Assembly: GCA_016267585.1 (NCBI GenBank)
Contig: JACQUT010000255.1
Location: forward strand, 1-5,257
DNA from: Cyanobacteria bacterium NC_groundwater_1444_Ag_S-0.65um_54_12
GTDB taxonomy: Bacteria > Cyanobacteriota > Sericytochromatia > S15B-MN24 > VGJW01
Direction: 5' to 3'
DNA length: 5,257 nt
A program made the position numbers and the translations under genes. Of this stretch, positions 2-4,023 are shown piece by piece (position 1 is the stretch's first letter; every line of letters begins with the position of its first letter). Below the pieces are notes generated by a model that ran no database searches, was not told the DNA's origin, and was given only the letters and a program-made list of their open reading frames with translations.

Positions 2-457
2 GGTAATGGCAAGGCCGGTAATGATTTACAAAAGGGTATCGTGGATAATCCTGATACCAGCATCGATGCTCCGCTAGCGGTGGCAGTCGATCAAGCTAAC
101 CGGGCTGTTTACTTTACCGATACTAATAATGGTCAAGTTGTTCGCATCGACGGAGACCTCAATGCTGTGCCAACCTTCACGGCGACGGTCGTGGCCAAAG
201 ATCTCGACCACCCGGGAGGGATCACTTTTAACCCGGCAACCAAGCATCTATTGATCGCCGATACGTCAAGCAATCGGATTCTTGTCTGGGACGGCGTGAC
301 CGGGCTCCATGCCAAGGCTACTTGCTCGGCGACTGCCGATCCAGCTACCGCGATCATCTGGCCGCAAAGTTTAGCGCTGGTCGGAGCGGAAGATTTCCCG
401 CTTTATTTTTCGGATTTCACCAGTAATCGGATACGCATACTGAATATTCGACCTTGA
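2..457 (+). CDS. NHL-repeat beta-propeller protein, C-terminal part
   Basis: The frame is open to the left edge, so the gene begins before the window; the GTG at 41 is only an internal codon. About 151 residues are visible. They start with a Gly-rich linker (GNGKAG), which in NHL proteins usually precedes a propeller blade. Three blade-like units follow, each with the pattern hydrophobic core, then YFTDTNNGQVVRID, LLIADTSSNRILVWD or LYFSDFTSNRIRILN. These D-T/F-x-x-N-R-I/V motifs are the NHL hallmark. NHL propellers are generally binding scaffolds, often extracytoplasmic, without catalysis. The ligand cannot be told from this fragment, and any signal peptide lies outside the window. The gene ends at TGA 455-457, only 6 bases from the converging small gene at 464, and I see no terminator hairpin between them. 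Family assignment is firm; function is unknown. Confidence 0.85.
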   Translation, partial: GNGKAGNDLQKGIVDNPDTSIDAPLAVAVDQANRAVYFTDTNNGQVVRIDGDLNAVPTFTATVVAKDLDHPGGITFNPATKHLLIADTSSNRILVWDGVTGLHAKATCSATADPATAIIWPQSLALVGAEDFPLYFSDFTSNRIRILNIRP

Positions 458-463
458 TTATAC

Positions 464-646
464 TTAGAAGTTTCCCTCGTCGATTTCCCGCAGCACATTT
501 GCCAGCTCATCCACCGAGGAGACGAGACGGTACCAGCGTTCGTCGGCGGTAGTGTTAGTAGCCAGTCGTTCAATTGCGGCATTCAAGCAAACCGGGACAT
601 GGGCTAGCAAGGAGTGTTCGTGATCGCCTGTTGCTGAGCAAGACAT
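464..646 (-). CDS. small 60-residue protein, last gene of the RiPP-like operon
   Basis: The ATG at 646 is preceded by GGAG (659-656) with 9-base spacing, and the frame runs 60 residues to TAA. I do not recognise the family. The N-terminal half carries two cysteines (C3, C20) and three histidines (H9, H11, H16). The C-terminal half is acidic and looks helical, ending SVDELANVLREIDEGNF. There is no signal peptide or membrane segment. It lies 106 bases after the metalloprotease gene on the same strand and fills the space up to the converging NHL gene. This position, with the good ribosome site, argues for a real gene. It could be a second substrate peptide, an immunity or accessory protein, or a small regulator; the sequence does not decide. 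The absence of family recognition and the short length keep confidence moderate. Confidence 0.55.
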   Translation of the reverse strand: MSCSATGDHEHSLLAHVPVCLNAAIERLATNTTADERWYRLVSSVDELANVLREIDEGNF

Positions 647-649
647 CTT

Positions 650-662
650 AGCGGTCTCCGCT
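650..662 (-). promoter_or_regulatory. hairpin covering the ribosome site of the 60-residue gene
   Basis: Inverted repeat AGCGG/CCGCT with a 3-base loop. On the minus strand the GGAG ribosome site (659-656) lies across the 5' arm and loop. If it folds in mRNA it would partly hide the site and reduce initiation at the ATG at 646. The repeat is seen; the regulatory effect is inference. Confidence 0.35.
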
Positions 663-752
663 TGTCTGAACGTGCATCCTTGCGACTACCGGTCAGGAGG
701 TTTCCGAACCATCCCCAGATTTCCTTCGGCAAAGCTGCCGGGGTCTTGAGCC

Positions 753-2066
753 TCACGAATTGTGAGAGTTGTCAAATTCAGTTTCGGCTTTTCGGGCCGA
801 CCGCCATTTTGCCAGGCGGGGCCAAAGATCGCGCCAGAGCGTCCGGACAAATAATATCTCGATCACGCCCTGAATCATCAAGGTCACCGAGCCGTCTGCC
901 AGCAACCGGTAATTGTGCGCTAGCCACCCCTGCCAGGTATTGTTGCCGGCCTGCCAGAGCAAACTCAGGATGGTAGGTATGCCATACCGGAAGAAAATTC
1001 CGAGGGACACGGCTGAGCCCACCAGAACGAGTAGGGAAAAGAGCTGGATTTTCCGGCGATCGCCCACCGCCAAAGCGGCGAGCGGACTGGGTGACTGTTG
1101 GCTGCGCCGACGCCATTGAACGAAACGGGTGAGTTTCTGATGAGTGACCAGCCTTTTTGCCAAGTAGCGTAGATAGCCGAGCGATTCGGGATGCAGGTTG
1201 TGGCAGCGCAAGAGATCCATGAGCACGAAATAGAGGTCCGTGCGCATGAAAACCTGTACCTGGAACATGACAAGCAAGAAACCACAGAGCAGGACCACCT
1301 GCAACAAACTCGCCAGCAAGGCTGGCAGGGGGAGCCAGGCTATAGCGAGCAGCGCCATTGCCGCTAACAGCAAATCGGTCGCCATGCCGGCCAAATATAC
1401 GCGGTAGCGCTGATAGCGCGGGCATGACCACAACCCGGTGACATCCGTCTGCACGACCAGGTTAGCCAGCCTGGTGCCCAGGCCAATCCAGGCCGGCACC
1501 CCATAAGAACGCGCTGCTATCAGATGCGCGAGTTCATGTAAGGCTATCATCCCGTAAAAGATTGCACTGTTGAACAGCATTACCCAGAGCAATGTGGTCG
1601 ACCAAAAAAAGTCCTGATAGCCAGGCAATAGCCCGGGCCGTAGCACCAGCGTGACCAGCGCGGCGCTCACCAGTGTCGCGTAAACTACTTTGGCTGGAAT
1701 TCCAAAGAGCCACTGCACGTGTCCCGGGCGAAGCCAGACCAAATTAGGCGGCTTGCTAGCTTTTTCTGCAACAGAACGGCCATCGACGGCTGCGATAAAA
1801 CCTACCTCCAGCAACTGTTCTATAAACGCGGTCACATCGATGACCTCTCCGCACTCGGCCGCTAGCTGTTCTTCGGCCAGGCGCGGCGTAGCACCCTGGC
1901 TGATAAGTTCGATGATACGGACTCCGACCGGCGGCAAACCAATAAACTCGCCGATATCCGGACGTCCCACAATATATTCCCCGTCCTCGCAGCGGATGTT
2001 AAGAGCATGTAATTGCAGCCTGGCTTCCGAGGCTATACTAGTGGGATACTGGCTCATACTTTGCAA
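753..2066 (-). CDS. PqqD-like domain fused to M50-type membrane zinc metalloprotease
   Basis: This is a 437-residue protein if it starts at TTG 2066, or 434 from the ATG at 2057. Residues ~15-95 look like a PqqD/RiPP-recognition winged helix: a G-E-Y beta strand, the segment IGEFIGLPPVGVRIIELI, then two helices ending FIEQLLEVGFI. A membrane domain follows, with hydrophobic segments near 121-142, 153-176, 223-243, 248-273, 341-371 and 388-408. HELAH at 177-181 is the HExxH zinc and catalytic motif. D277 in RTDLYF, 96 residues on, is the probable third zinc ligand, in the position of the N-x-D-G motif of M50/site-2 proteases. The protein is probably a membrane-embedded peptidase that acts on the operon's peptide, possibly also needed for its release or for self-protection. 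It overlaps the adenylating-enzyme gene, so translation is probably coupled. The substrate is inferred from context only. Confidence 0.85.
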   Translation of the reverse strand: MQSMSQYPTSIASEARLQLHALNIRCEDGEYIVGRPDIGEFIGLPPVGVRIIELISQGATPRLAEEQLAAECGEVIDVTAFIEQLLEVGFIAAVDGRSVAEKASKPPNLVWLRPGHVQWLFGIPAKVVYATLVSAALVTLVLRPGLLPGYQDFFWSTTLLWVMLFNSAIFYGMIALHELAHLIAARSYGVPAWIGLGTRLANLVVQTDVTGLWSCPRYQRYRVYLAGMATDLLLAAMALLAIAWLPLPALLASLLQVVLLCGFLLVMFQVQVFMRTDLYFVLMDLLRCHNLHPESLGYLRYLAKRLVTHQKLTRFVQWRRRSQQSPSPLAALAVGDRRKIQLFSLLVLVGSAVSLGIFFRYGIPTILSLLWQAGNNTWQGWLAHNYRLLADGSVTLMIQGVIEILFVRTLWRDLWPRLAKWRSARKAETEFDNSHNS

Positions 2067-3214
2067 TCAAGCTCCGGCGGATCCATCATGGAATGTCGCC
2101 ATGGGCTATTTTCGCCGCAAGCCGGGCAATCTGGCAGACGCGGAACTTCTACATAATAAACATGATCGTAAAGCATGAGATTCCAATGGAAGATGCGGCC
2201 AATGGTCTGTGGCTTCAGTCCCGCCAGGTAGTAAATCGCTTCCAGCGCCCCGAAATGCCCGCTCAGATTTGCCGAAGGGGCTATGACGGCATTTAGCGGC
2301 GGCTCGTCATGTAAACGCTCGATACCAGCAGGTGCCTGCTGCTCCCACTTCGCTGCTTCATGGCGCTCGAAGCAGCTGACACAAGGCGATACGTAGGGTA
2401 AATAAAGCCCGCACAGTAACATGGGACCGGCATAACCACAGAGCAGCCAGGGAGTCCTGGTACTTAGCGCCGCTTCGTTGACCCAGCGCTGGATTTGCTC
2501 TATCGGGGTATCGGCGCAGAGCACGAAGAGTTCGCGTTGCTGCATTAGCGGAATCAGATCGGAGCAAGAACCGATTTGCAGCTCTTGGCCCGTTACCAGC
2601 ACCTGGGGATTTAGTTGTTGCAGGCGCTCGATTGCTACTGCTACTTTCGAGCGGCCAATGTCAGCTGAGGTATACAAAAGCTGGCGATTGAGGTTGGAAA
2701 CCTGAATGACATCAAAATCCACGCAATGTAGCTCACCTATGCCAGCTGCTACCAGGCTCGCCGCCAGAGCAGAACCGGCTCCGCCCAAGCCCAGCAACGT
2801 GACCCGCGAGCGTTTGAGGCGTAAGAGCGTCTCGTAGGGCGAGGATCTAGGCTCGGTATCCACCCAGGCGTAGTAGTGCAAGCTGCGCTCTTGACGTGCC
2901 AGCTCTGACGGGCTTAGCTCGGGTGGTGGCAAGGCCGCTGCGTCTTCCACGAACCCCTGCTCGATCAACGAAGTGATGCCGGCGCAAATGCTGTCTGCTG
3001 TCAGTTCCGGGTAGACTTGCTGCATTTGCTGGACCACTTCCGCTACCGTGCTGGTGCCATCTAGCAGGCCCAGTAATTGCCAGATATGTCCCTCTTCGTC
3101 TTCTATTTCGGCACTTACTCCGACCTGCAAGGTACCGATGCGAATGAGTTGCTTGGCGGTACGAAAAGGGTTATGGACCCGCTTGATGCGCGGTAGTCGT
3201 AAATTGTTTGACAT
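2054..3214 (-). CDS. E1/ThiF-like adenylating enzyme with N-terminal PqqD-like domain
   Basis: 386 residues. Residues ~10-92 match the PqqD/RiPP-recognition fold: strands around GVSAEIED and HIWQLLGLLDG, then helices VAEVVQQMQQVYP and ITSLIEQGFVED. This domain usually holds a leader peptide. Residues ~135-370 are an E1/ThiF domain: GLGGAG (142-147) for ATP, D166-F-D168, SNLNRQ (173-178), K190 and the metal-site-like CADTP (D235). CVSC (278-281) and CPAC (363-366) form the expected structural zinc site. The reaction is probably ATP-dependent adenylation of a peptide carboxylate or amide, as in the microcin C enzyme MccB, which has a similar size and plan; TOMM ThiF-like partner proteins are the main alternative. 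It sits between the precursor-like gene and the protease. No YcaO partner is present in the operon, which argues against azoline formation. I assign the fold firmly and the product chemistry only tentatively. Confidence 0.88.
   Translation of the reverse strand: MSNNLRLPRIKRVHNPFRTAKQLIRIGTLQVGVSAEIEDEEGHIWQLLGLLDGTSTVAEVVQQMQQVYPELTADSICAGITSLIEQGFVEDAAALPPPELSPSELARQERSLHYYAWVDTEPRSSPYETLLRLKRSRVTLLGLGGAGSALAASLVAAGIGELHCVDFDVIQVSNLNRQLLYTSADIGRSKVAVAIERLQQLNPQVLVTGQELQIGSCSDLIPLMQQRELFVLCADTPIEQIQRWVNEAALSTRTPWLLCGYAGPMLLCGLYLPYVSPCVSCFERHEAAKWEQQAPAGIERLHDEPPLNAVIAPSANLSGHFGALEAIYYLAGLKPQTIGRIFHWNLMLYDHVYYVEVPRLPDCPACGENSPWRHSMMDPPELDCKV
2072..2075 (-). promoter_or_regulatory. ribosome site that decides the protease start
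   Basis: GGAG at 2075-2072 is 5 bases before TTG 2066-2064 but 14 bases before ATG 2057-2055. The ATG forms an ATGA overlap with the TGA stop (2056-2054) of the upstream gene, typical of coupled re-initiation. The ribosome site favours TTG and the overlap favours ATG; the difference is three residues. Confidence 0.5.
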
Positions 3215-3215
3215 A

Positions 3216-3220
3216 CTCCC
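3216..3220 (-). promoter_or_regulatory. ribosome site abnormally close to the ThiF-like start
   Basis: GGGAG (3220-3216) is followed by a single T and then ATG (3214-3212). A spacing of 1 base is far below the usual 5-10. An in-frame TAA (3238-3236) lies upstream with no start codon in between. The next possible start, TTG at codon 29, would cut into the PqqD-like domain, so the ATG is retained and translation may be weak. Confidence 0.5.
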
Positions 3221-3229
3221 GAAACCGCT

Positions 3230-3259
3230 AAAAAATTATCGGCGGAGAAATTCCGCCGA
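3230..3259 (-). terminator. intrinsic terminator or attenuator between precursor and enzymes
   Basis: Perfect 8-bp GC-rich stem TCGGCGGA/TCCGCCGA (3259-3252 with 3246-3239) and a 5-base loop, followed on the minus strand by TAA and six T (3235-3230). It lies after the precursor-like gene and 15 bases before the ThiF-like start. Such a leaky terminator is a common way to make more precursor than enzyme in peptide operons. No separate promoter is obvious between it and the next gene, so read-through is expected. Confidence 0.75.
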
Positions 3260-3308
3260 CCTTACACCGTTTCCGATACCGATAGCCGTACCCGGTCAGT
3301 ATCCGCGC

Positions 3309-3329
3309 TATGGTTGTAGAATAACCATA
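3309..3329 (-). repeat. 7-bp inverted repeat downstream of the precursor gene
   Basis: TATGGTT (3309-3315) and AACCATA (3323-3329) can form a 7-bp stem with a 7-base loop. It has no T-run, so it is not an intrinsic terminator. It lies between the precursor stop and the 3230-3259 terminator and could protect the 3' end of the short precursor transcript or bind a regulator. Either role is inference. Confidence 0.35.
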
Positions 3330-3369
3330 TGATAATCGGTATACCCACTACCTGATCTGGCCAGGATAG

Positions 3370-3543
3370 TTAGCTGGTGAAGACAAAATAGCCATACGAA
3401 CGGTTGTTATAGGAACCAGCTGGTGTCTCCAGTTTTTCCATGCGACGGATCTTGATCTCTAGTTTTTTGCTTGGGGACTTTTCAACCGGAACTTGCTGCG
3501 CTTCCCGAGCCGGTAAATTAGAAAAATCTTTTGTTTCGATCAT
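3370..3543 (-). CDS. candidate RiPP precursor peptide, 57 residues
   Basis: ATG at 3543 with AGGAG (3558-3554) 10 bases upstream; stop TAA 3372-3370. The 57-residue product has no signal peptide and no cysteine. Residues 1-27 are polar and charged. Residues 28-41 (LEIKIRRMEKLETP) form a charged amphipathic stretch that could pair with a PqqD-like domain. Residues 43-57 (GSYNNRSYGYFVFTS) change character sharply: Gly, Ser, Tyr, Asn and Phe, with three Tyr and two Phe. This leader/core split, the first place in the operon, a strong-looking promoter, and the terminator separating it from the enzyme genes are all typical of a RiPP precursor. The Ala-Gly at 42-43 is a plausible cleavage point but is not demonstrated. 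I cannot name a family. It does not end in Asn like microcin C peptides. Confidence 0.72.
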   Translation of the reverse strand: MIETKDFSNLPAREAQQVPVEKSPSKKLEIKIRRMEKLETPAGSYNNRSYGYFVFTS

Positions 3544-3582
3544 AGTAACAATACTCCTAACAATAATACCCCTTCAGCTTTT

Positions 3583-3591
3583 ACTATAGCA
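3583..3591 (-). promoter_or_regulatory. extended -10 promoter of the peptide operon
   Basis: On the minus strand the region reads TGCTATAGT, an extended -10 (TGn plus TATAGT, one mismatch from TATAAT). It lies about 40 bases before the precursor ATG, giving a short untranslated leader of about 33 bases with AGGAG inside it. No good -35 is seen at 17 bases, which extended -10 promoters tolerate. Confidence 0.55.
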
Positions 3592-3601
3592 TAACTGACG
3601 A

Positions 3602-3677
3602 ACAATCTTGCTTTTCACCAGACAAGCAGGCAAACTACCATATTTGATAGTTTGAGCAATGCTAGCATAAAGATTGT
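3602..3677. repeat. nested inverted repeats in the divergent promoter region
   Basis: Outer arms ACAATCTT (3602-3609) and AAGATTGT (3670-3677) enclose inner arms CAAACTA (3631-3637) and TAGTTTG (3648-3654). The centres nearly coincide (about 3639 and 3642). They sit between the start of the peptide operon and the zinc-ribbon gene, overlapping the likely promoter of the latter. A shared operator or DNA-loop site is possible; both roles are inference. Confidence 0.4.
3644..3671 (+). promoter_or_regulatory. possible promoter of the zinc-ribbon gene
   Basis: TTGATA (3644-3649) and CATAAA (3666-3671) are separated by 16 bases. The -35 is good and the -10 is weak. The transcript would have a leader of about 55 bases before the ATG at 3733. 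The -35 overlaps the inner inverted repeat. Confidence 0.3.
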
Positions 3678-3732
3678 CGTATCGCTTGCTTGGCCCTGCC
3701 AGCCTTTATTGTCAAAGAAGAGGAAAAACGCC

Positions 3733-4023
3733 ATGGCTCCCATCGATCATGAAGAGAGATACTTCAAAGAACTAGAAGAGCGCCGGCTAGCAGAACGGCG
3801 CCATCAACAAGCAATTGCCGCGCAAGACCAAGAGCGTCAGTCACATTACATGCGTTGTCCTAAATGTGGTGGCCAGCTGGAAGTAATCCAGCATGAAAAC
3901 ATCGAAGTCGATCGCTGTAAGGATTGCTCCGGTATCTGGCTAGATGCTGGAGAACTGGAGTACCTGACTTCGACCACCAAAAGTTCTACTTTTTTCGGTT
4001 TTTTGACGAGACGCAAGTCCTGA
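3733..4023 (+). CDS. TFIIB-type zinc-ribbon protein (zf-TFIIB domain)
   Basis: The chosen start is ATG 3733, with AGAGG (3719-3723) 9 bases upstream; the longer TTG reading from 3652 would start inside the promoter region and lacks a ribosome site. The product is 96 residues. Residues 1-39 are highly charged, rich in Glu, Arg and Gln, and probably one long helix or coiled coil. Residues 42-78 are a zinc ribbon: CPKC (42-45) and CKDC (62-65), then SGIWLDAGELE, the signature of the bacterial zf-TFIIB family. Four cysteines should bind one zinc. The tail TFFGFLTRRKS is short and basic. The molecular role of this family is not well established. It is divergent from the peptide operon and converges on the response regulator with 8 bases between stops. 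No evident role in peptide maturation, although a shared divergent control region is possible. Confidence 0.88.
   Translation: MAPIDHEERYFKELEERRLAERRHQQAIAAQDQERQSHYMRCPKCGGQLEVIQHENIEVDRCKDCSGIWLDAGELEYLTSTTKSSTFFGFLTRRKS

Follow-up and report, generated by a model that had tools for sequence, protein, structure and literature searches.

A compact ThiF-M50 gene cassette with a leader-bearing small peptide, a likely source of an undescribed kind of modified peptide

The question raised by this locus is what a small set of genes can make when it encodes a short peptide, an E1-like enzyme and a membrane protease. The window, by which the whole stretch of 5,257 nucleotides analysed is meant, carries on its minus strand, in this order, a precursor, a ThiF enzyme, an M50 protease and a 60-residue open reading frame (ORF) (Table 1). 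ORF calls and translations confirm all four as described in a first-pass annotation of this DNA, which had also bounded the set by a divergent gene at its head and a convergent gene at its tail, found here as a zinc-ribbon and an NHL-repeat gene, respectively. The M50 ATG at 2057 overlaps the ThiF stop codon as ATGA. The ThiF, M50 and precursor genes almost certainly form a compact three-gene cassette of the RiPP type, and the cassette likely makes a modified peptide of a so far undescribed kind.

Table 1. Coordinates of the features discussed, numbered from the first letter of the window
Feature	Position	Strand	Remarks
Precursor gene	3370..3543	-	57 aa; ORF; AGGAG upstream
RRE-like + ThiF/E1 adenylyltransferase gene	2054..3214	-	386 aa; Pfam PF00899 2e-38
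RRE-like + M50 membrane metalloprotease gene	753..2057	-	434 aa; Pfam M50 4.9e-6, just under cut-off
60-aa ORF	464..646	-	Small coding family, downstream of M50
Terminator-like hairpin, 9 bp then T-run	3238..3260	-	Precursor-ThiF spacer
Zinc-ribbon protein gene, divergent, head boundary	3652..4023	+	PF13453; ATG probably 3733
NHL-repeat protein gene, convergent, tail boundary	2..457	+	Incomplete at contig end

Recurrence in other genomes

Named genomes were searched with the ThiF alignment as the sole query, which gave 38 loci (L004-L041); many of these come from related genera, Nonomuraea above all, and are not independent. The M50 gene lies directly downstream of ThiF in all 36 loci with sequence there, and in 37 of the 38 the leader motif appears in a small ORF just upstream of ThiF, an adjacent precursor with leader and core being a feature of ThiF-like adenylyltransferase (TLAT) RiPPs. 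Adjacent ThiF and M50 genes accompanied by a small ORF with a fixed leader and a variable tail are what the first-pass annotation had named as support for its reading. The search pattern [KR][LMF][EDA][KRN][LIV]ET gave 37 matches in the 400 nt upstream of ThiF and none in the 1,156,752 codons elsewhere in the same loci. In L008 the gene pair is present and its precursor lies on the opposite strand at a distance of about 11 kb, and a plasmid relative (L066) has the ThiF-M50 pair and no recognisable precursor within 500-700 nt. In ORF clustering, ORFs that overlap ThiF and M50 aside, no third gene family reached beyond 13 of the 39 loci, and no YcaO partner, as expected of LAP/TOMM systems, was found in the window or in its genome (G000, 64.58% complete), which agrees with the self-contained operon first proposed.

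The order of the cassette is the same in cyanobacteria and actinobacteria, and for Chloroflexi the sole indication of its occurrence is the naming of ThiF homologues. Among 292 genomes sampled from the window's phylum, 291 hold no match to the enzyme at E 1e-30. A distant clade was represented by 30 loci drawn from a same-order actinobacterial sample, in which the distant ThiF matched 86 of 297 genomes; in a phylum-wide actinobacterial sample it matched 1 of 296, the centre genome itself. M50 is directly downstream in 12 of these 30 loci, and a recognisable precursor is present in 9, of which 6 end in Asn, so the chemistry may differ among clades. None of the 135 stretches of viral contigs that matched a pattern encodes a relative, and matches of the ThiF protein in a defence-system library were those of its E1 domain to E1-E2 models, with no system context.

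The window belongs to an incomplete bin. The neighbouring response regulator shares 87-88% identity with its counterpart in three genomes of the same family, though 66% with that of the fourth, and mis-binning was largely rejected. This regulator was found in the loci of seven relatives (L053-L059), at 77-88% identity, and the short flanks of these loci, compared as possible empty sites, contain no zinc-ribbon, NHL or cassette gene and so mark no insertion boundary.

The two enzymes and the precursor peptide

The ThiF domain scores 132.3 bits against a Pfam cut-off of 28.1, and the AlphaFold (AF2) model of the enzyme (pLDDT 91.3) aligns over almost its full length with MccB and PaaA, its best PDB matches. 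MccB, of the microcin C system, ranks first in both sequence and fold, and the match includes the N-terminal domain (Foldseek E 8.6e-26) at 21% sequence identity. All 30 aligned ThiF sequences share residues R177, K190 and D235. These align with those of MccB and are each numbered 10 higher than R167, K180 and D225 of EnfB, as given in excerpts of PMC12250964; judged from the alignment, the ATP/Mg residues of ThiF-like RiPP enzymes are intact in the window enzyme. Cysteines 278, 281, 363 and 366 are likewise invariant in the family (30-sequence alignment). Two further features of TLAT RiPPs are present, namely an N-terminal RRE joined to the ThiF/E1 domain, as seen from the PF00899 and fold matches, and the conserved Arg, Lys and Asp. 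The ThiF score and the fold support an E1-like enzyme with a leader-binding-type domain, although PqqD scores 15.6 bits in the ThiF protein and 19.1 bits in the M50 protein, both below the Pfam cut-off of 23.4.

The M50 domain scores 26.5 bits, just under its cut-off of 27.2. The protein contains HELAH at 174 and RTD at 272, the zinc site (H174, E175, H178 and D274) is invariant, and HExxH and RTD occur in 28 of 28 aligned sequences. Hydrophobic segments surround the HExxH and the distal Asp, an arrangement of site-2 proteases. For its AF2 model (pLDDT 90.6) the top PDB matches are a lasso RRE with leader, TbiB1, and the site-2 protease 3b4r, with Foldseek probabilities of 1.00 and 0.99, respectively; the E-value, 0.08 in each case, is weak. 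The second claim of the first-pass annotation, a membrane protease with its own leader-binding-type domain, is upheld by the intact zinc site and the RRE-like match, both domain scores being below the Pfam cut-offs. In both enzymes the models place an RRE-like fold at the front.

The leader of the window precursor ends ...KKLEIKIRRMEKLET and its tail is PAGSYNNRSYGYFVFTS. The typical leader motif across loci is IRKLEKLETT; the window has ETP where its relatives have ETT, the Arg of its tail stands 10 residues from the C-terminus, and its last residue is Ser. The motif NNR(S/V)(W/F/Y)G...TS of this tail is common to four database peptides (P0156, P0171, P0180 and P0182). As the sole query, the window peptide matched only itself, and a leader profile was needed, which gave 222 matches at E<=10. 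Among the 120 of these that were listed, the window included, the leader motif is found in the 119 others, T follows ET in 119, the fourth residue after ET is Arg in 99, and the C-terminal residue is Gly in 80. Comparison of the sequences indicates a fixed leader, conserved between phyla, and a variable tail. After one 65-residue tail (P0184) was dropped, as longer than 30 residues, 110 unique tails remained, 107 of them with Arg. Arg is the fourth residue in 83 tails (shuffles: mean 14, maximum 28), and in 92 of the 107 a distance of 4-7 residues separates the first Arg from the C-terminus, whether the preceding stretch is short or long. Gly ends 71 of the 110 (shuffles: mean 24, maximum 37) and Asn only one. 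The three tails without Arg hold Cys or Lys, and a Cys near the place of the Arg occurs in two far plasmid relatives and in one tail type of a distant clade. Arg, Cys and Lys are all absent from the distant-clade tail TGLISNPSGS (L086), which counts against an Arg-based ring.

Proposed chemistry and its alternatives

The proposal that we rather favour is that the ThiF enzyme adenylates and likely closes the tail of the precursor and that the M50 protease cuts off the leader. The RRE-like domain of each enzyme would bind the IRKLEKLETT-type leader, and the ThiF enzyme would use ATP to adenylate the C-terminal carboxylate of the precursor, a step that we regard as very probable. The activated carboxylate would then react with a side chain within the variable tail, with loss of water; a ring as the product, and neither a nucleotide adduct nor an amide, is a serious possibility, if slightly short of an even one. 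The ring partner would be the conserved Arg, or in some relatives a Cys, and Arg is a doubtful candidate for this role. The guanidine of Arg is a poor nucleophile. With its Arg 10 residues from the C-terminus and its ETP, the window member agrees least well with the ring argument, which rests on the common tails. The M50 protease would remove the leader at or just after ETT, giving a short peptide (16-17 residues in the window), and may also release it across the membrane, as no transporter is present in the set. Signalling is the leading guess for the role of the product, since BTAD/NB-ARC/TPR regulators adjoin the cassette in several actinobacteria. A bolder version would make the cassette a new RiPP class: ThiF would join the C-terminal carboxylate to the Arg guanidine as an acylguanidine macrocycle (a thiolactone with Cys), the intramembrane protease, guided by its RRE, would set the ring free, and TPR-type regulators would respond to it as a short signal. 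As a whole, this version is improbable.

A microcin C-like route, in which the ThiF enzyme would link a nucleotide to the C-terminus of the peptide by a phosphoramidate and give a Trojan-horse product, is suggested by the match to MccB and by the distant-clade tails ending in Asn (e.g. ...SNSTGN). It is unlikely here, as MccB acts on a C-terminal Asn (PMC12150305, in excerpt), whereas the Asn-ending precursor was found neither in the window, with its final Ser, nor, one unique tail aside, in the close family, and the set has no exporter. Equally unlikely is amidation of the C-terminus, or its coupling to a small amine from elsewhere, in which an outside nucleophile would attack the acyl-adenylate; EnfB also makes amides with added amines (part of PMC12250964), and, Arg and Gly aside, no tail residue is near-universal, one distant tail even being free of Arg, Cys and Lys, but an amine-supplying third enzyme is not widely common to the loci.

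The E1 domain could also serve solely to bind the leader, as a scaffold for a YcaO that is encoded elsewhere and forms azoles or thioamides, and this would be consistent with the NCBI label 'TOMM precursor leader peptide-binding protein' on several homologues and with the docking-only ThiF proteins of YcaO clusters (excerpts of PMC12150305). The invariant ATP/Mg residues, the many tails without Cys (e.g. TINRGGQSG) and the lack of a YcaO in the 64.58% complete genome and of a widely common third family make this very improbable. No more credible is the idea that the small ORF encodes a regulatory leader peptide or a small partner of the enzymes instead of a precursor: a hairpin does follow it in the spacer, as in attenuators, but it is the amino acid leader that is conserved between phyla, the tail varies in length and sequence around Arg, and RRE-like folds are found in both enzyme models.

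Known systems, the hairpin and the 60-residue protein

Within the excerpts available of the cited literature, the bond made by the ThiF-like enzyme differs from one RiPP pathway to the next. The ind cluster of Streptococcus pneumoniae, for an indolylamide RiPP, is like the window in being a minimal set with a precursor, an RRE-ThiF enzyme and a metallopeptidase. It reads precursor-ThiF-peptidase-transporter, and its enzyme IndF links Trp with the Ile at the C-terminus (PMC12150305, in part). As predicted in the window family, IndF works on a short tail, activates the C-terminal carboxylate and uses a reactive side chain few residues from the C-terminus, while the peptidase is of the M16 family instead of an RRE-fused M50, a transporter is present that the window set does not have, and the tail (EDTTNWYFI, with Trp as partner) differs from that of the window, all according to the same excerpts. 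PaaA (pantocin A), GrcB and EnfB share the RRE and ThiF domains and the spacing of the ATP/Mg residues with the window enzyme, but their precursors, partner enzymes and lineages differ, and the excerpts of PMC12250964 describe no M50 protease for them. M50 proteases act in the pearlin (TglG/TmoG) and epipeptide (EpeP) pathways (PMC10885120, in part), and these, like the daptide M50, are membrane proteases acting on a RiPP precursor, as proposed for the window. The daptide M50 model of NCBIfam, NF041824, gives 30.9 bits on the window protein against a cut-off of 300, which places it outside that family. To our knowledge, the partner enzymes of TglG/TmoG, EpeP and the daptide M50 are not ThiF-like, and we know of no M50 partner in the microcin C system.

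No ThiF-M50 RiPP class was found in the published literature, within the excerpts covered, though such a class may lie among the unannotated clusters of a 2025 survey. PMC7157772 was discarded as a precedent, its 'M50' matches being journal page codes in the references, and the letters of the leader gave, among the literature matches listed, only 'leklett', taken as a surname fragment. The family combines a leader of its own, its own membrane protease fused to an RRE, and an Arg that is nearly invariant amid otherwise variable tails, and the cassette is a very small system for new peptide chemistry, suited to testing two RRE-like domains that share one leader and whether one intramembrane protease does both leader removal and release without a transporter.

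A terminator had been proposed after the precursor, and a hairpin with a T-run was indeed found there. The scan of 400-3750 gave 6 terminator-like sites against 3.3 expected from shuffles and is weak alone; the spacer between precursor and ThiF folds with a z of -2.9 in the window, and z is -2 or lower in 31 of 38 such spacers, the window included. As strong folding recurs in the same spacer, the hairpin is probably a leaky attenuator between precursor and enzymes rather than a terminator, and it would keep precursor levels above those of the enzymes.

The 60-residue protein had been counted in the operon, and its ORF is present and belongs to a coding family, but no counterpart was found in the 38 loci (L004-L041) at E 0.01. 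One weak match to ZorG (0.0066), without system context, was set aside. Relatives occur in 2 of 194 genomes (G000 C131:159-332 and G016 C313:4277-4426), and no ThiF or M50 was seen by eye in the ORF lists of these contigs. Since it has no counterpart beside the other cassettes and both its relatives lie elsewhere, the 60-residue protein is probably outside the cassette.

Gene layout and conservation of the cassette

The window spans the entire contig C203 of its genome bin, which comprises 2,068,272 bases in 411 contigs (completeness 64.58%, contamination 1.97%). The contig most likely belongs to this bin, since its response regulator resembles those of same-family genomes, with 87-88% identity to three of them (86-88% by tblastn) and 66% to a fourth. 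Pfam PqqD matches, which would denote a leader-binding-type (RRE-like) domain, were obtained in both the ThiF protein (0.02) and the M50 protein (0.0017), each below the curated cut-off.

Minus-strand features of the contig
Feature	Coordinates	Strand	Basis
Precursor ORF, 57 aa	3543-3370	minus	ORF reading
ThiF/E1 protein, 386 aa	3214-2054	minus	ORF reading; Pfam ThiF 2e-38
M50 protease, 434 aa	2057 (start) to 753 (end)	minus	ATGA overlap with the ThiF stop; Pfam M50 4.9e-6, just below the curated cut-off
Small ORF, 60 aa	646-464	minus	ORF reading

The ThiF alignment alone was used to scan named genomes representing 84,980 species with one genome apiece; the scan went through two peptide patterns and would miss ThiF relatives lacking them. 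Among the 156 stretches matched by the patterns, 38 encode a ThiF relative (loci L004-L041): Calothrix, Nostoc, one cyanobacterial MAG and 35 actinobacterial loci, many of them from related genera and thus not independent. In all 36 loci whose sequence continues past ThiF, a homologous M50 gene directly follows it; L040 and L041 break off at a contig end within ThiF. The gap lengths computed for L016 and L038 look wrong. A motif-bearing small ORF lies upstream of ThiF in 37 of the 38 loci, the sole miss being L008, whose precursor is encoded on the opposite strand at a distance of about 11 kb. All 37 matches to the pattern [KR][LMF][EDA][KRN][LIV]ET fall in the 400 nt upstream of ThiF, with none in the rest of these loci (1,156,752 codons, six frames). 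The first-pass annotation had proposed a RiPP-like system in which adjacent ThiF and M50 genes follow a small ORF; this arrangement is borne out by the loci, and its interpretation is largely right.

Some loci have peculiarities of their own. The distant peptide of L008 (contig C55 of genome G292, Nonomuraea jiangxiensis), which retains the ThiF-M50 pair, is P0184 and has an unusually long tail. Sphaerisporangium rufum (L040, L041) seems to hold two cassettes, because precursors and ThiF starts are found at two contig ends and an M50 fragment opens L040. An 11.85-Mb replicon of Nonomuraea gerenzanensis (L065, NZ_LT559118.1), entered as a plasmid in a plasmid collection and listing just 10 features, carries a cassette precursor and ThiF.

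The spacer between precursor and ThiF contains a 9-bp hairpin and a T-run in the window, and the folding z-score was at or below -2 in 31 of 38 spacers (window plus 37 loci; each against 40 shuffles that approximately kept dinucleotides), the exceptions being L004, L006, L019, L032, L033, L035 and L036. The hairpin is probably an attenuator, which would hold precursor levels above enzyme levels.

Precursor peptides and enzyme models

A precursor profile built from 18 sequences (the window and 17 of the 37 precursors found) matched 222 proteins at E <= 10. Among the best 120 of these, which include the window's own, the ET of the leader motif is followed by T in 119, Arg stands fourth after ET in 99 and the C-terminal residue is Gly in 80. 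The listed peptides and the locus tails, minus one 65-residue tail, gave 110 unique tails, of which 107 contain Arg; the remaining three have Cys (two) or Lys and His (one). Counted back from the C-terminus, the first Arg is 4-7 residues away in 92 of these 107 tails, and this spacing holds for tails with an early Arg as well as for those with Arg 9-10 residues after ET. Gly ends 71 of the 110 unique tails, against a mean of 24 and a maximum of 37 in shuffles. The window tail, PAGSYNNRSYGYFVFTS, falls in a subgroup with peptides P0156, P0171, P0180 and P0182, characterized by NNR(S/V)(W/F/Y)G...TS. Equal contig sizes, the sole basis here, suggest that peptides P0181, P0171 and P0203 share contigs with the ThiF homologues P0002, P0027 and P0018, respectively.

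The AlphaFold2 model of the ThiF protein (pLDDT 91.3) was built from an alignment of 30 of the 120 proteins listed among 474 matches. Its best PDB matches, MccB (E 8.6e-26) and PaaA, extend over nearly the full length, and therefore the N-terminal domain also matches their leader-binding domain. R177, K190 and D235 are invariant in the 30 proteins, as are C278, C281, C363 and C366, the sole invariant cysteines, which are the zinc pair expected of the ThiF/E1 fold. The Arg, Lys and Asp of MccB align with those of the window ThiF by phmmer, and Arg167, Lys180 and Asp225, which the review PMC12250964 names for EnfB, have equal spacing at an offset of ten.

The M50 protease model, with pLDDT 90.6, was built from 28 sequences, taken from the window and from 27 of the 36 loci that have M50 downstream; H174, E175, H178 and D274 are invariant across the 28 aligned proteases. 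No PDB match reached E 0.001; the top two were TbiB1, a leader-bound lasso-peptide RRE (prob 1.00, E 0.08), and the site-2 protease 3b4r (prob 0.99, E 0.084). The protein is read as a predicted RRE-like domain plus site-2 protease on account of these probability scores and because both expected parts were matched.

Wider family and proposed chemistry

More distant ThiF relatives (35-40% identity) are found on plasmids of Streptomyces, Actinacidiphila and Nocardia. All three genes precede one encoding HExxH and RTD, and two have an upstream precursor with (I/F)RRL(E/D)(R/K)xETT, in which Cys takes roughly the usual position of Arg. A search of a single actinobacterial order yielded a ThiF relative (E <= 1e-55) in 86 of 297 genomes; among 30 loci taken from it, M50 lies immediately downstream in 12 and about 1 kb further along in 11, and 7 gave no match within the 1.5-kb flank. 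The 11 loci with M50 about 1 kb past the ThiF end (L077, L082, L085, L089, L090, L092-L095, L097 and L099) leave room for an extra gene and have no precursor with the searched motif. Nine of the 30 have a recognised precursor: six end in Asn (L074, L075, L078, L079, L081 and L084, with RRLDR(L/F)ETT leaders and tails ending in SNS(S/T)GN), two carry Cys in fourth position, and the tail of the remaining one (L086) lacks Arg, Cys and Lys. The C-terminal Asn would suit a microcin C-like nucleotide addition. The window's group is thus a single clade within a broader ThiF-M50 family whose members vary in their tails and perhaps in their products.

Gene set and order, the leader/tail pattern and the conserved active-site residues are the observed basis of a mechanism, along with the RRE-like folds predicted in the enzyme models. 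Both RRE-like domains would bind the leader, ThiF would adenylate the precursor C-terminus, a ring would close after adenylation, and the leader would be cut after ETT, followed by release. The ring is proposed because of the precedents of IndF and GrcB and the Arg near the C-terminus, replaced by Cys in some far relatives. Against it count the L086 tail and that of the window, whose Arg lies 10 residues short of the C-terminus; the window member would hence form a larger ring or follow other chemistry.

The nearest worked example is IndF, whose minimal cluster links Trp to the C-terminal Ile (PMC12150305). The authors of that paper counted 27,400 RRE-ThiF fusions and noted that new RiPP chemistry could be encoded by several clusters of their network; the cassette family may be one of these. 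M50 proteases are reported in pearlin and epipeptide pathways (excerpt of PMC10885120). The term M50 is absent from the excerpts of PMC7470986 and PMC12710340, as is ThiF from that of PMC13381572, and no ThiF-M50 precursor system appeared in the titles or abstract openings listed by searches of an open-licence library. The cassette is rated here as a variant among the ThiF-like adenylyltransferase RiPPs.

Other genes at the loci

The 60-aa protein, proposed earlier as an operon member, probably lies outside the system: none of the 38 loci gave a match at E 0.01, and its relatives among 194 genomes of the phylum are elsewhere in its own genome (40%; L064, G000 C131:159-332) and in a same-family genome (42%; L063, G016 C313:4277-4426), on contigs whose ORF lists revealed no ThiF or M50 by eye. 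These proteins, of about 60 aa, form a real small family in which a W is conserved and the C-terminus is acidic.

All-against-all ORF clustering of 39 loci, including the window, gave no third enzyme common to many. An AfsR-like family is present in 13 of the 39; when one BTAD domain was used as a BLAST query, 12 of the 35 loci from actinobacteria gave a match (L009, L011, L012, L013, L015, L017, L018, L019, L020, L031, L038 and L039). Three genomes carrying the family hold 104 BTAD matches in about 25 Mb, a density at which the 528,293 bases of those loci should contain about two; this estimate comes from genomes chosen as carriers and with differing search methods, and several loci are from close relatives. 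Nine of the 12 genes lie no more than about 0.6 kb from the cassette, either upstream in divergent orientation or downstream in the same orientation, and the three proteins tested with Pfam (L009, L012, L039) all have BTAD, NB-ARC and TPR. These regulators may sense or control the peptide.

An ABC-ATPase-like family, named by eye from sequence, is scattered over six loci, lies mostly kilobases away and was discounted as a cassette member; its nearest gene (L022) is about 0.45 kb beyond M50 on the opposite strand. Another family follows M50 in six loci (L014, L018, L023, L025, L028 and L030), and its sole member tested, from L030, is named DUF3105 by Pfam. In all of these loci except L025, the precursors have two-Cys tails around a CR(N/D) motif.
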